From: an uncultured Ruminococcus sp.
GTDB taxonomy: Bacteria > Bacillota > Clostridia > Oscillospirales > Ruminococcaceae
Assembly: GCA_947627275.1 (NCBI GenBank)
Contig: CANQVK010000005.1
Coordinates: forward strand, 1-64,000
Length of the DNA stretch: 64,000 bases
Direction: 5' to 3'
Every line of letters begins with the position of its first letter. Position 1 is the first letter of the stretch. Shown here one piece after another: positions 11,405 through 62,182 of the stretch. A program made the position numbers and the translations under genes. The notes beneath the pieces are model-generated. The model had not been told where the DNA came from and ran no database searches. It worked only from the letters and a program-made list of their open reading frames with translations.

Positions 11405-11434
11405 TTTACAACAAATCATATCATGTGGTATAAT
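11405..11434 (+). promoter_or_regulatory. Probable promoter reading into repeat A1 and the spermidine-synthase-like gene
   Basis: TTTACA, 18 bp, TATAAT. The expected start of transcription (about 11441) falls at the left terminal repeat of element A1, so A1 and D would form most of a leader of about 440 nt. Confidence 0.55.
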
Positions 11435-11442
11435 ATACTTGC

Positions 11443-11849
11443 ACTATCTGCAACTTAAGAGGAATTTGCTGCCCTTTACTCTATGTTAAAGAGGTAACTC
11501 TTAGAAACCAATATCGTAAATTTTCCTGTATAAAGCAATGTAAACTTAAATTTAAAATAAATAAAACGGCTTTATACAGGTAAATTTACGACAACAGAGA
11601 TTCCAAAGGGGTCACCCCTTTGGCAGGGGGTGCAGGGGGACAGAGTCCCCCTGCTTAAGGCAACACCGCACAAAGACCGGCTAATGCCTTTGCACGTCAT
11701 CTGCTTGCATATTTTCCGTCAGCTTACACAAAAACTCCTTGACATACGACAGTATGTCTGCGTCGTTTTTATGCAAGCTGACGAAAAATCTGACTGCGCA
11801 TCTGACGCACAATCTCTGTGCGGTGTTGCCTTAAGTTGTAGACAGTGAA
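11443..11849 (+). repeat. Family A composite element, copy A1 (contains element D)
   Basis: Bounded by inverted CACTATCTGCAACTTAAG (left) and CTTAAGTTGTAGACAGTG (right). Inside, in order: near-palindrome AAGAGGTAACTCTT; long hairpin with 22-nt arms at 11515-11536 and 11569-11590 (21 of 22 paired); hairpin CCAAAGGGG/CCCCTTTGG (11603-11623); hairpin GCAGGGGGAC/GTCCCCCTGC (11632-11654); then element D. No ORF within it is convincing. Confidence 0.75.
11655..11834. repeat. Element D: palindromic MITE-like repeat
   Basis: About 180 bp with terminal inverted repeats TTAAGGCAACACCGCACAAAG / CTCTGTGCGGTGTTGCCTTAA (a few mismatches). The centre carries CCTTGACATACGACAGTATG, a core also seen in family C. 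It abuts the last hairpin of A1 and provides the right end of that composite. Confidence 0.7.
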
Positions 11850-11881
11850 TATATTTGCAAATTTTTGGCAGGAGGTAAAAA

Positions 11882-20901: not shown

Positions 20902-21072
20902 ACACGCAAATCAATTTTTGAAATTTTATTTGTCAGGATTGTGTATGTGTAGGGACACGGCGTGCCGTGTCCACCTTGTGTTTCTTGAGATTTCGCACGG
21001 ACATGGCACGCCGCGTCCCTACGAAAGCAGGTATATCCCAATTATTTTTCTCAAAATTGATTTGCGTGGAGG
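20902..21072. repeat. Family B MITE-like repeat, copy B1
   Basis: Ends CACGCAAATCAATTTTTGA / TCAAAATTGATTTGCGTGG are inverted. Inside are two facing copies of the near-palindrome GGACACGGCGTGCCGTGTCC, each next to GTAGGGA. No ORF. B1, the relic above and the promoter below fill the gap from 20693 to 21200. Confidence 0.75.
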
Positions 21073-30807: not shown

Positions 30808-31893
30808 TTAATTATTAATATTTCCATAGCGGAGTACAAGCTGATCCATAAGAGCGAGAGCCGTAATACTGTCCACCACGACCCTTGCACGGTGTACTAT
30901 AGCCGGATCGTGTCTGCCCTGTATCTGCAATGTCGTATTTTCGCCGTTTGTAAGGTCAACAGTCTGCTGCTCCTTATAAATGGACGGCGTAGGCTTTACG
31001 GCACAGCGGAACGTAACAGGCATTCCGTTTGTTATGCCGCCGAGAATACCGCCGCAGTTATTGGTTGACGTAGTTACTTTATTGTCGATGCTTCTGAACG
31101 GGTCGTTAGCCTGACTTCCTCTCATTTCGGCATATTTGAAGCCTGCGCCAAATTCAACGCCCTTTACGGCAGGTATGCTGAAAAGAGCATGAGAGAGGAC
31201 GCCCTCTACAGTGTCGAACCAAGGCTCTCCGACTCCGGCAGGCATACCGAATACGGCTGTTTCAAGTATTCCGCCGACAGAATCTCCGTCAGCTTTTGCA
31301 GCCATTATAGCTTCTTTCATTTTTTCCTCTGCGGAGGTATCGAGGACAGCAAATTCCCGTCCGTCCAGAAAGTCGATGTCTGCCTGAATATCCTCAAATT
31401 CCCTGTCGTAAACGCCGCCGCACGAGAGGATATGAGTTCCTATAGTGATACCGTGCGCTTTAAGGGCGGAGATCGCCACAGCGCCGGCGGCGACTATTCC
31501 TGCGGTGATGCGTCCCGAGAAGTGTCCGCCGCCGCGGAAATCCTGAGAACCTCCGTACTTTACGTTTGCTGTAAAATCCGCATGACCGGGACGCGCTTTA
31601 TATGCAAGTTCGCCGTAATCACGGCTGCGCGTATCCTGATTTTCAATTATAAATGTGATCGGCGTACCTGTAGTTTTACCGTTAAAAACGCCGCTTACGA
31701 TCTTTACCTCGTCCGCTTCTTTCCGTGCTGTTGAAATAGCGCCTGCGGATCTTCTGAGAGACATCTGACGTGCGATAAAGTCCTCGTCAACAGGAATACC
31801 GGCAGGCATACCGTCAAGAACGGCTCCTATAGCGTTTCCGTGGCTTTCGCCGAAAAGTGTGATAGCAACGCTGCTTCCGAAAGTGTTTTTCAA
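30808..31893 (-). CDS. aroC: Chorismate synthase
   Basis: Last step to chorismate: converts EPSP to chorismate using reduced FMN. It has 361 residues with GESHGNAIGAVLDGMPAGIPVD, RPGHADFTANVKYG, DFRGGGHFSGRITAG and GGILGGITNGMPV. The start codon is TTG (GAGGTGAAACATA before it), preferred because the protein then begins MKNTFGSSVAITLFGESHG, as in the family. It is the first gene after the A2 repeat and a promoter at 32165-32193. It shares a pathway with the trp operon upstream but probably has separate transcription. Confidence 0.95.
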   Translation of the reverse strand: MKNTFGSSVAITLFGESHGNAIGAVLDGMPAGIPVDEDFIARQMSLRRSAGAISTARKEADEVKIVSGVFNGKTTGTPITFIIENQDTRSRDYGELAYKARPGHADFTANVKYGGSQDFRGGGHFSGRITAGIVAAGAVAISALKAHGITIGTHILSCGGVYDREFEDIQADIDFLDGREFAVLDTSAEEKMKEAIMAAKADGDSVGGILETAVFGMPAGVGEPWFDTVEGVLSHALFSIPAVKGVEFGAGFKYAEMRGSQANDPFRSIDNKVTTSTNNCGGILGGITNGMPVTFRCAVKPTPSIYKEQQTVDLTNGENTTLQIQGRHDPAIVHRARVVVDSITALALMDQLVLRYGNINN

Positions 31894-31912
31894 TATGTTT
31901 CACCTCTGTTTC

Positions 31913-32148
31913 AATATCACTGTCTACAACTTTAGCGAGTGACTCTGTCTCCCACACCCCCTGCCAAAGGGGTGACCCCTTTGGAATCTCTGTGTTAGTG
32001 AATTTTCCTGCATAATGTCACCTCATTTATTTGAGATTATAGTATAACATGACATTATGCAGGAAAATCCAATGATACAGATACCAAGAGTTAACTCTTT
32101 AACAGAGAATACAAGAAAACAAAATTCTCGTTAAATTGCGGATAGTAA
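31913..32148 (-). repeat. Family A element, copy A2, in the aroC leader
   Basis: Read on the minus strand. Ends: ACTATCCGCAATTTAACGAG on the left, the inverse CTAAAGTTGTAGACAGTG on the right. Inside: perfect palindrome AAGAGTTAACTCTT (32086-32099), long hairpin with 24-nt arms (32050-32073 and 31997-32020, 22 of 24 paired), hairpin CCAAAGGGG/CCCCTTTGG, then a weaker GACAGAGTC hairpin. No ORF. It lies between the aroC promoter and the aroC start. Confidence 0.78.
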
Positions 32149-32164
32149 TTTTAATATAGAAAAA

Positions 32165-32213: not shown

Positions 32214-32283
32214 GTAAATCAATTTTCTAAATGTTGGGACACGGCGTGCCGTGTCCATGTGAAATTTTGCCGAAAATACGTGT
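32214..32283. repeat. Family B repeat, copy B3 (partial)
   Basis: CACGTAAATCAATTTTC at the left end and the central GGGACACGGCGTGCCGTGTC are shared with B1 and B2. The right end is degenerate (AAAATACGTGTG). Confidence 0.6.
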
Positions 32284-32285
32284 GC

Positions 32286-32307
32286 GAGGAGATACTAAAC
32301 AGGCTCT
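32286..32307. repeat. Family G half-hairpin
   Basis: GGAGATACTAAACAGGCTCT is one arm of the family G hairpin at 56863-56910, with the partner arm lost. It touches the trpA stop region. Confidence 0.5.
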
Positions 32308-33082
32308 AAGCAGTTATAACTGCTTCTTTCATTAATCTGACGTATTCGCCTACATAGTAGGGGGAATCCTTTCCGTACTGTTCGATGATTTTAATTATTG
32401 CCGAACCTACAATAGCGCCGTCTGAAATACCCGCTATTTTCTGAGCCTGACGAGGCTCGGAAATACCGAATCCGACAGCGCAGGGAATGTCCGTATTCTC
32501 ACGTATTACCTTAACTATGCGGCTTATATCGGTGTTTATCTCGCTTCTTACGCCGGTAACGCCCAGACTGGAAACGATGTAAATAAATCCCTCGGCGTCT
32601 TTGGCGATCATAGCGGCTCTGTCCTCGGAGGTCGGAGCGATAAGGGAGATCATTTCAACGCCGTATTTTTTTGATACGTCGGAAAATTCGTCCTTTTCTT
32701 CATAGGGAAGATCGGGCAGTATTATGCCGTCAATTCCCGATTCCTTGCAGCGTGACATAAAACGTTCGCCGCCGTAGGAAAAAACAACGTTTGCATATGT
32801 CATGAAAACAAGCGGTATCTTAACATCACGGCGAAGCTCGGTCACAAAGTCAAATATTTTATCTGTTGTTACGCCGACTGCCAACGCACGTATGTTCGCC
32901 CCCTGAATAACAGGACCTTCTGCGGTCGGGTCGGAAAAAGGAATGCCAAGTTCGATAAGGTCTGCGCCTGCGTCAGCCGCCGCACGGACGACCTTTGCAG
33001 TCGTTTCAAGATCGGGGTCACCGCATGTAATAAAGGGAATAAATGCCTTGCCGTTTTCAAATGCTTTTCTTATATTACTCAT
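32306..33082 (-). CDS. trpA: Tryptophan synthase alpha subunit
   Basis: Cleaves indole-3-glycerol phosphate to indole, which passes to TrpB. It has 258 residues and a TIM barrel. Signatures: [32 protein letters not shown] (catalytic Glu and Asp region), [11 protein letters not shown] (second catalytic Asp), [10 protein letters not shown] and [12 protein letters not shown]. It overlaps the end of trpB by 8 bp. Last gene of the trp operon. Confidence 0.96.
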
Positions 33083-47600: not shown

Positions 47601-47670
47601 ATTATCATCCTTCGGATTTTTTCTTAATTTTTATTATACTATATTTTTTGGGAATTTGCAATATTGAATT

Positions 47671-47831
47671 TATACTAAACGCTATAGCCAAACGCGCAAT
47701 AAATGACAAGCAGATTTTGCACATAGCAAGGCGGAGGACGCAGGCATACTGTCGTATGGCAAGGACGACAACGATGCAATGTGTAAAATATGCTGTCAGA
47801 TATGCGTGATTTGCTATAGCGTTTAGTATAA
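47671..47831. repeat. Family C MITE-like repeat, copy C1
   Basis: About 160 bp. Ends TATACTAAACGCTATAGC and GCTATAGCGTTTAGTATA are perfect inverted repeats. The core includes CATACTGTCGTATGGCAAGG, whose reverse complement recurs in element D. Nearly identical to C2 at 53562. It could fold as one long stem. Confidence 0.8.
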
Positions 47832-47837
47832 GTAACT

Positions 47838-47869
47838 TAAGTGAACTAACATCGGATTCCAAAGGGAAC
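47838..47869 (+). repeat. Family A relic
   Basis: TGAACTAACATCGGATTCCA followed by AAGGGAACG matches the start of relic A0 (CGAACTAACATCGGGATTCC). The hairpin partner is lost. The rest of the gap up to 47993 holds nothing I can assign. Confidence 0.45.
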
Positions 47870-51796: not shown

Positions 51797-52073
51797 ACAC
51801 GGAAATCAATTTTAAGGTTTACAGTAAATTTACGCAGAGGGACTCTGTCCCCCTGCACCCCCTGCCAAAGGGGTGACCCCTTTGGAATCTCTGTGGTCGT
51901 GAATTGGACTGTGGCAATCCCGAAATCAGCACGACGCTGTTAGTCTCCGTGATTACCACAGTCCAATTCACGAGAACGGACACCAAGAGATGCCTCTTTA
52001 ACAGAAGGTAAAGTGAAGCAATATCCGCTGTATAAATTTACTGTAAAACTTTAAAAATTGAATTACGTGTTAT
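51797..52073. repeat. Family A copy A3, bounded by family B-like ends
   Basis: Outer ends: ACACGGAAATCAATTTTAAG...ACAGTAAATTTA and TAAATTTACTGTAAAACTTT...AATTACGTGT, inverted over about 37 bp and similar to family B ends. Inside, read on the minus strand: AAGAG/CTCTT hairpin, long hairpin with 22-nt arms (51951-51972 and 51898-51919, 21 of 22 paired), CCAAAGGGG/CCCCTTTGG and a GGGGGACAGAGTCCC hairpin. It fills the whole gap between the MATE gene and the 52112 gene. Confidence 0.72.
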
Positions 52074-53367: not shown

Positions 53368-53483
53368 GCAAATCAATTTTGAGAAAAATTGTGATATTCC
53401 TGCTTTCGTAGGGACACGACACGCCGTGTCCCTACACATATACAATCTTGACAAATAAAATTTCAAAAATTGATTTGCGTGGT
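53368..53483. repeat. Family B MITE-like repeat, copy B2
   Basis: Ends CGCAAATCAATTTTGAGAAA and AAAATTGATTTGCGTGG are inverted; the centre is GTAGGGACACGACACGCC followed by GTGTCCCTAC. Compared with B1 it is an inverted, shorter version with a single central palindrome. Confidence 0.75.
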
Positions 53484-53529: not shown

Positions 53530-53561
53530 AAATATGTGTAGGAAAACACAATAATATTTTC

Positions 53562-53719
53562 TACTAAACGCTATAGCAAAACACGCAATAAATGACAAGC
53601 AGATTTTGCACATAGCAAGGCGGAGGACGCAGGAATACTGTCGTATGGCAAGGACGACAACGACGCTGTGTGTAAAATATGCTGTCAGATATGCGTGATT
53701 TGCTATAGAGTTTAGTATA
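53562..53719. repeat. Family C MITE-like repeat, copy C2
   Basis: Almost the same sequence as C1 (47671): CTACTAAACGCTATAGCA / TGCTATAGAGTTTAGTATA ends and core ATACTGTCGTATGGCAAGGA. The right end meets AAGGAG, the likely ribosome site of the YitT-type gene. Confidence 0.8.
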
Positions 53720-53724
53720 AGGAG

Positions 53725-54597
53725 ATGAAATGTTTGAAAGCAAGTAATTTTATAGCTTTGACGGCAGCAGGGATAATCAACGCCTTTGGGATAACTTTTT
53801 TCCTGTATCCCGTAAACTTATACGATTCGGGCATATCGGGAACGTCTATGCTTCTGGCTCAGATAACGCCGCCGACTTTATCGCTGTCGCTTTTTTTGAT
53901 CCTGCTGAATCTTCCGCTTTTTTTGTACGGCTATAAGAAAATGGGATTGCCGTTTACGATTTACTCCGTGTATTCGGTATTTATTTACTCTCTGACTTCG
54001 TGGCTGATAACGGACGTTTTTCCAGTAGATGTAAGTATTGCATCTCCGCTGGCTGAACAGGATCTTCTGCTTTGCGCAATATTCGGCGGATTGATCTCGG
54101 GTATCGGCAGCGGTCTTACTATACGTTTCGGCGGAGCGATAGACGGCATAGAAATACTTGCGGTATTGTTTGCTAAAAAACTGAGTTTATCTGTCGGAAT
54201 GTTCGTTATGGGATATAATGTTATCCTCTACATTGCGGCTGGATTTATAAAGTCAAGCTGGATCTTGCCGCTGTATTCAATAATTACATACGCTGCCGCC
54301 CTTAAAACGGTAGACTTCATAGCTTCTGGCTTGGATAAGGCAAAGTCGGCAATGATAATAACGAATAAGTCCGCTGAGATATGCGACGCATTATCGGCTG
54401 AATTTGGAAACGGAATAACCGTGATAGGCGCAAAGGGATATTATTCCGATAAGGAGAAAACTCTTATTTATTTTGTGGTAAATCGTTTTCAGATAAATAA
54501 GGTAAGAAACATAGTCCATGAACATGATCCTCATGCCTATGTAACTATTACGGAAGTATCCGATGTTCTTAGGACTGAGCAGTACAGCGAATCCTAA
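53725..54597 (+). CDS. YitT/YpjC-type membrane protein (DUF161 plus DUF2179)
   Basis: A 290-residue protein with five to six membrane helices (about 8-185) and a C-terminal soluble DUF2179 domain (about 210-290, GNGITVIGAKGYYSDKEKTLIYFVVNRFQINKVRNIVHEHDPHAYVTITEVSDV). GISGTSMLLAQIT and the later GLISGIGSGLTIRFGGAIDGIEILAVL are the duplicated YitT helix motifs. The transported substrate is not established. The start is uncertain: the ATG at 53725 is one base after AAGGAG, while TTG at 53734 has better spacing (KASNFIAL). Confidence 0.88.
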   Translation: MKCLKASNFIALTAAGIINAFGITFFLYPVNLYDSGISGTSMLLAQITPPTLSLSLFLILLNLPLFLYGYKKMGLPFTIYSVYSVFIYSLTSWLITDVFPVDVSIASPLAEQDLLLCAIFGGLISGIGSGLTIRFGGAIDGIEILAVLFAKKLSLSVGMFVMGYNVILYIAAGFIKSSWILPLYSIITYAAALKTVDFIASGLDKAKSAMIITNKSAEICDALSAEFGNGITVIGAKGYYSDKEKTLIYFVVNRFQINKVRNIVHEHDPHAYVTITEVSDVLRTEQYSES

Positions 54598-62133: not shown

Positions 62134-62182
62134 TGCAAAATATGCTGTCAGATATGTGTGATTTGCTATAGCGTTTAGTATA
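62134..62182. repeat. Family C end fragment, copy C3
   Basis: TGCAAAATATGCTGTCAGAT and TTTGCTATAGCGTTTAGTAT are the right third of family C. The left end is missing. Confidence 0.65.

Follow-up and report, generated by a model that had tools for sequence, protein, structure and literature searches.

The locus under study is the intergenic interval between two ORFs, named trpA and aroC from their sequence and presumably those genes, within the window (the whole 64-kb stretch of DNA that was analysed, from an uncultured Ruminococcus sp.). This interval holds A2, a copy of a dispersed repeat, family A, which is also present in the window as A1 and A3. An earlier note, made from the letters alone, had described these three copies with a common order of parts, and both are present in the sequence as claimed. 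Read in the CAGAGATT orientation, they comprise a TIR, a pyrimidine-rich stretch, a small palindrome, the long hairpin, CAGAGATT, the CCAAAGGGG hairpin, the GGGGGAC hairpin and the other TIR. The pairing counts given for the long arms also hold, with 21/22 pairs in A1 (one T:T), 22/24 in A2 and one U:G among the 22 pairs of A3, while the element ends were corrected to those of Table 1. The degenerate terminal hairpin of A2 has an alternative pairing with the 5' side of the element, forming the outer helix discussed below. No ORF of at least 100 aa lies inside A2 or A3, indicating that the unit, of about 230 bp, has no transposase of its own.

Table 1. Coordinates of the family A copies in the window, of their parts and of the genes beside A2
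Feature	Position	Strand	Remark
Element A2, whole	31918..32147	-	TIRs at both ends; between trpA and aroC, co-oriented with both
trpA	32306-33082	-	ORF beside A2
aroC	30808-31893	-	ORF beside A2
A2 target-site duplication, left copy gtttcaatat	31908..31917	.	8/10 identical to 32148-32157
A2 target-site duplication, right copy attttaatat	32148..32157	.	
A2 TIR CACTGTCTACAACTT, element 3' end	31918..31932	-	
A2 TIR TACTATCCGCAATTT, element 5' end	32133..32147	-	
A2 degenerate terminal hairpin, GGGGGAC/GTCCCCC type	31937..31953	-	
A2 right hairpin CCAAAGGGGTCACCCCTTTGG	31964..31984	-	
A2 CAGAGATT linker	31985..31992	-	
A2 long hairpin, 3' arm	31996..32020	-	
A2 long hairpin, 5' arm	32050..32074	-	
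A2 left small hairpin AAGAGTTAACTCTT	32086..32099	-	
Element A1 (L009), whole, nested MITE inside	11442..11847	+	TIRs 11442-11459 and 11830-11847
A1 target duplication AATATACTTG/AATATATTTG	11432-11441 and 11848-11857		
A1 long hairpin, 5' arm	11514..11536	+	
A1 long hairpin, 3' arm	11569..11591	+	
A1 right hairpin CCAAAGGGGTCACCCCTTTGG	11603..11623	+	
A1 terminal hairpin GGGGGACAGAGTCCCCC	11635..11651	+	
Second MITE nested in A1, TIR GCAACACCGCACA	11660..11829	.	CTTAAG duplicated at 11654-11659 and 11830-11835
Element A3 (L011), whole	51798..52069	-	Other TIR type CACGGAAATCAATTTT, resembling second IS (L112)
A3 long hairpin, 3' arm	51897..51919	-	
A3 long hairpin, 5' arm	51951..51973	-	
A3 right hairpin	51865..51885	-	
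A3 left small hairpin	51985..51998	-	

The mobility of these repeats had been overlooked: A1, A2 and A3, like the other members of the family, are very probably short non-autonomous mobile elements (MITEs), with TIRs and target duplications that are mostly of the IS4 type. The typical unit is about 230 bp long, bounded by the TIRs CACTRTCYRCAACTTAAG and by target duplications of about 10 bp. A TIR search of the genome gave 166 matches, and exact direct repeats of 8-11 bp adjoin the TIR ends in many copies (for example GTTATGTAAT, ATTGTACAAC and CTTTTATAAT), with none clear in others. A 1.41-kb IS of the congener G018, located through the interior sequence of two contig ends of the source genome (C19 and C43), has the family A TIR, a 10-bp duplication (GATGCTAAAC) and a 445-aa IS4-family transposase of the DDE type (NF033592 at 139 bits, with a cut-off of 115; PF01609 at 1e-17). 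The TIR CACTATCCACAACTTAA stands at both ends of this IS (L209), and close variants of it end most copies; moreover, the terminal 73-75 bp of the IS were found at broken contig ends of the source genome, where C19 and C43 break just inside. Going by the shared TIRs and the duplications of about 10 bp, the G018 IS is the likely mobiliser, and most copies would have spread by its transposase. No transposase was seen at the partial TIR matches (L211, L218) of Ruminococcus sp. RGIG8671, a related MAG that comes from the colon of water deer. Meanwhile, in a minority of copies (A3, L007, L015 and L039) the TIRs resemble those of a second DDE IS, so that by their ends these are not IS4 MITEs; thus, a single type of body is found with either set of ends. 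Except for those copies, the nearest known kind of element is the IS4-derived MITE.

Several further elements were noticed. Many carry the same IS4-type TIR with other hairpin modules or almost nothing between (L092, L101, L102, L106, L107, L109-L111), the shortest being 30 bp of joined TIRs, so this TIR family is modular. The second DDE IS itself (L112; G000:C43, about 12.9-14.2 kb) has the TIR CACGCAAATCAATTTT and an inserted hairpin element of about 150 bp, its ends resembling those of A3. In some copies (L021, L012, L048, L051, L116, L294), further hairpins of the GGTGACTCCC...GGGGCGATAAGCCAG type stand in a chain in place of the last or right hairpin, indicating that hairpin modules are inserted into hairpin loops. 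Within the window, a GGGACACGGCGTGCCGTGTCC hairpin module occurs in several copies (20938-21019; 32222-32257, beside A2; 53397-53432), and another dispersed palindromic family, unrelated to A, is found at 47669-47843, 53558-53732 and 62134-62182, being 93% identical with ends TATACTAAACGCTATAGC, and also at a contig end in L092.

The core CAGAGATTCCAAAGGGGTBACCCCTTTGG, with up to 3 mismatches, occurs at 62 places in the 2.44-Mb genome and nowhere in the reversed control, which, together with the predicted fold of A2 (z = -10), indicates that the family is not a product of chance. A slightly shortened core gave 131 matches in RGIG8671. A covariance model built from 36 copies gave 79 hits in the source genome, 49-52 in the congener G031 (E-values down to 4.5e-10) and a few in other congeners. 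The G031 relatives, strongly clustered at 199-378 kb and 1270-1416 kb of its contig C11, have the same layout and nearly the same right hairpin, with an entirely different long hairpin. The exact core is absent from 35 congeners, so the relatives there are diverged. Copies seldom lie in divergent (promoter) gene gaps, with 7 in divergent and 22 in convergent ones, genes being approximated by long ORFs; there is no orientation bias to the neighbouring gene, as 55 copies read in sense and 69 in antisense, and an argument for a cis-acting RNA from such a bias was therefore dropped. At the Rfam gathering scores, only two tRNAs were found in the 64-kb window, and the best matches to A2 lie far below the thresholds, so that a known Rfam family was rejected; nor did the literature yield anything relevant on a Ruminococcus MITE or on the core motif. 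The earlier note, too, knew of no described family with such a layout.

Beyond the genus, a phylum-wide spread of the GATTCCAAAGGG..CCCTTTGG module was rejected, as it was found in only 1 of 199 other sampled genomes. An exact 25-mer, GATTCCAAAGGGGTNACCCCTTTGG, present in many copies, also occurs in Desulfovibrio sp. DV and Solidesulfovibrio aerotolerans (L117, L123, L129-L189) and in Methylorubrum/Methylobacterium (L168, L169, L187). Of 20 Desulfovibrionales sites, 12 have it enclosed by the outer repeats GCCTCCGGCGGCC...GGCCGCCGGAGGC, and most of these also have a CCGGGGG hairpin on the left; the arrangement is similar, the letters different. That CCAAAGGGG-centred cloverleaf elements might form an unrecognised structured mobile class across distant bacteria, with a stem kept paired yet rewritten by template switching and a fold of common function, is a speculative and quite doubtful proposal.

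The two sides of the element, left and right, together make up one long imperfect palindrome, and a single strand is predicted to fold as a cloverleaf with an outer helix, a small left hairpin, the long hairpin and the right CCAAAGGGG hairpin. This model is supported by covariation, and its long-range outer helix was found unaided by RNAalifold. Across 49 aligned copies, pairing is kept in 97.9% of the cells, compared to 42-55% when the partners are slid by 1-3 columns and 89% after shuffling, with changes on both sides in 160 cells; the covariation score is 0.278, compared to 0.047-0.110 and 0.119, respectively. In the congener, 40 non-redundant elements were compared, a set collected with a hairpin-containing model, which would miss copies that had lost the hairpin. 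Their stems pair to 96.3% with their own partner and to 60.4% with the partners of other copies; 36 of the 40 arms are distinct, and the inner stem positions each show three or four different Watson-Crick pairs. The palindromes of the long hairpin reach 22 bp. The stems of the source genome fall into a few classes, and a core search independent of the hairpin found it kept in nearly every intact copy. The claim that the flanks are far more conserved than the arms holds for the right flank (95% identity between congener copies, with 59% in the arms) and fails for the left one (48%); arms and left flank, the latter not conserved, change at about the same pace (pairwise identity 0.59 vs 0.48).

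The outer helix and the long hairpin bear different marks. On the 5' side of the outer helix, nearly all departures from perfect complementarity are C-to-T changes, which keep U-G pairing on the sense strand and not on the antisense. Of 123 copies, 120 have the lower duplex energy on the sense strand (mean -35.9 vs -24.4 kcal/mol), as do 33 of 40 in the congener (-32.7 vs -24.1); these counts are not independent, since the copies are related, yet the bias recurs in two diverged lineages. This pattern suggests that the folded sense strand is probably under some selection, acting through the outer helix, either as part of a read-through RNA or as single-stranded DNA. In the same alignment, G-U cells make up about 40% of the outer helix and about 1-2% of the long stem, whose mismatches in the congener are 7 G-U, 6 A-C and 8 others of 560. 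The compensated cells of the congener comprise 94 transversions and 58 transitions, an excess that points to arm copying, as a selected RNA stem should change mostly through G-U intermediates.

Inverted loops are a further footprint, found with near-identical arms in four pairs of copies. L283 and L294, which hardly differ over about 130 nt, share the same stem with the loop inverted (CCC-TTTAT-GGG vs CCC-ATAAA-GGG); L302 has GTAAA in place of the TTTAC of its relatives; and in L005, from the source genome, the whole spacer of about 32 nt is inverted, scoring 0.42 in inverted orientation, with a shuffled maximum of 0.21 and -0.10 forward. Taken together, the excess of transversions, the scarce G-U pairs, the inverted loops and an arm rate close to that of the left flank argue for arm-to-arm copying in the long stem. 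As proposed here, the DNA polymerase would occasionally switch template within the hairpin, copying one arm from the other and sometimes inverting the loop, where the inversions and the whole-pair replacements are seen directly in the sequences and the polymerase step is deduced from them. It is moderately likely that the pairing of the long hairpin comes mainly from such switching. In the source genome and RGIG8671, the long stem has 29 G-U and 17 A-C mismatches (p = 0.05), which hints at RNA-level selection on this stem too. The earlier note had offered selection for structure or template-switch repair; copying appears to fit the long hairpin, with its inverted loops, transversions and lack of a G-U preference in the congener, while selection would apply mainly to the outer helix with its strand-specific wobble.

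Insertions shared by two species allow the changes to be followed at single sites. Six of them lie at the same place in the source genome and in RGIG8671, with both flanks about 90-96% identical (L003/L184, L008/L171, L011, that is A3,/L136, L017/L139, L023/L119 and L027/L146), repeats being possibly misassembled in the latter, as it is a MAG. A whole-pair transversion is present in each of L017/L139 and L023/L119, and a single whole-pair change separates the close copies L268 and L274. A seventh shared site, L054/L154, has its entire hairpin exchanged for a hairpin of a different class; either copies also trade parts or the MAG is misassembled there. The pair L022/L178 was rejected as orthologous after alignment.

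On a different reading, the whole element works as a structured RNA, either in cis within read-through transcripts or as a small RNA, and selection keeps its long stem paired through ordinary compensatory mutations. The strong covariation, the very stable fold, the strand-specific wobble of the outer helix in two lineages and the position of A2, co-oriented between trpA and aroC, would suit it, as would the fact that almost every intact copy still has the hairpin, something that neutral copying by itself would not demand. Against this stand the rarity of G-U pairs in the long stem relative to the outer helix, double transversions outnumbering double transitions, exact loop inversions between sister copies, the even split between sense and antisense orientation and the lack of an Rfam family at gathering scores, making this reading possible and rather unlikely. 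Family A is an undescribed structured MITE family and a candidate, rather than proven, ncRNA.

It is improbable that selection acts on the long stem in the form of a DNA hairpin or cruciform, for instance as a protein-binding site, an aid to transposition or a replication-stall site: although its near-perfect Watson-Crick pairing, its long palindromes and the near equality of G-U and A-C mismatches in the congener would be expected there, the unconstrained stem sequence implies no sequence-specific protein, transposition is already explained by the TIRs, the G-U wobble of the outer helix is ill-suited to a DNA cruciform and loop inversion is not predicted by selection alone. Highly improbable is the view that no mechanism is needed, a small number of hairpin variants having recently been spread by transposition and by recombination among the copies. 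Exchange between copies is unable to make new paired variants, and the distinct yet paired stems of the congener, as well as the single whole-pair changes in close copies and orthologous insertions, speak against it, in spite of the few stem classes of the source genome and the whole-hairpin replacement at L054/L154.

IS4-family-derived MITEs or mobile insertion cassettes, such as MIC231 of Bacillus, have IS4-type TIRs and target duplications of 10-12 bp and lack their own transposase, features that, as these elements are generally described, are shared by family A. Unlike them, the family A body is a cloverleaf palindrome with a hypervariable paired stem and is also found on a second TIR type. 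The bcr1, ERIC and NEMIS/Correia elements are intergenic mobile repeats of 100-230 bp able to fold as RNA; by their usual description, family A differs from them in TIRs, duplications, hosts and fold, and to our knowledge none has a central stem of near-free sequence.

Family A resembles REP/REPIN sequences as a repeated extragenic palindrome (PMC3116915, PMC3733652). As described there, REPs are 20-40 bp long, often bear GTAG/CGTC tags and are partnered by REP-associated tyrosine transposases, whereas family A has a unit of about 230 bp, outside that size, with TIRs, target duplications and a DDE transposase partner. There is also a likeness to template-switch mutation of hairpins, a process proposed to create and maintain RNA hairpins (PMC8794818, Monttinen and Loytynoja 2022). 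Homogenised arms and compensatory changes of several bases at once are the common features (PMC8794818, PMC8604942), and PMC8604942 describes homogenisation with spacer inversion as a footprint of switching between inverted-repeat arms. There the process concerns RNA genes and yeast coding sequence; here, it would act on dozens of dispersed copies of a bacterial mobile element.

Covariation is generally regarded as the strongest sign of a functional RNA fold. In family A, much of the covariation of one helix appears to be of mutational origin, while a second helix shows the wobble pattern that selection on a fold would be expected to leave. Since each genome has dozens of copies and two species share orthologous insertions, the family is a natural replicate experiment in which these two sources of covariation could be measured side by side in bacteria. 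It also adds an undescribed family of mobile elements, common in some gut Ruminococcus, whose variant feature relative to known MITEs is a structured body whose central stem keeps changing in sequence yet remains paired.
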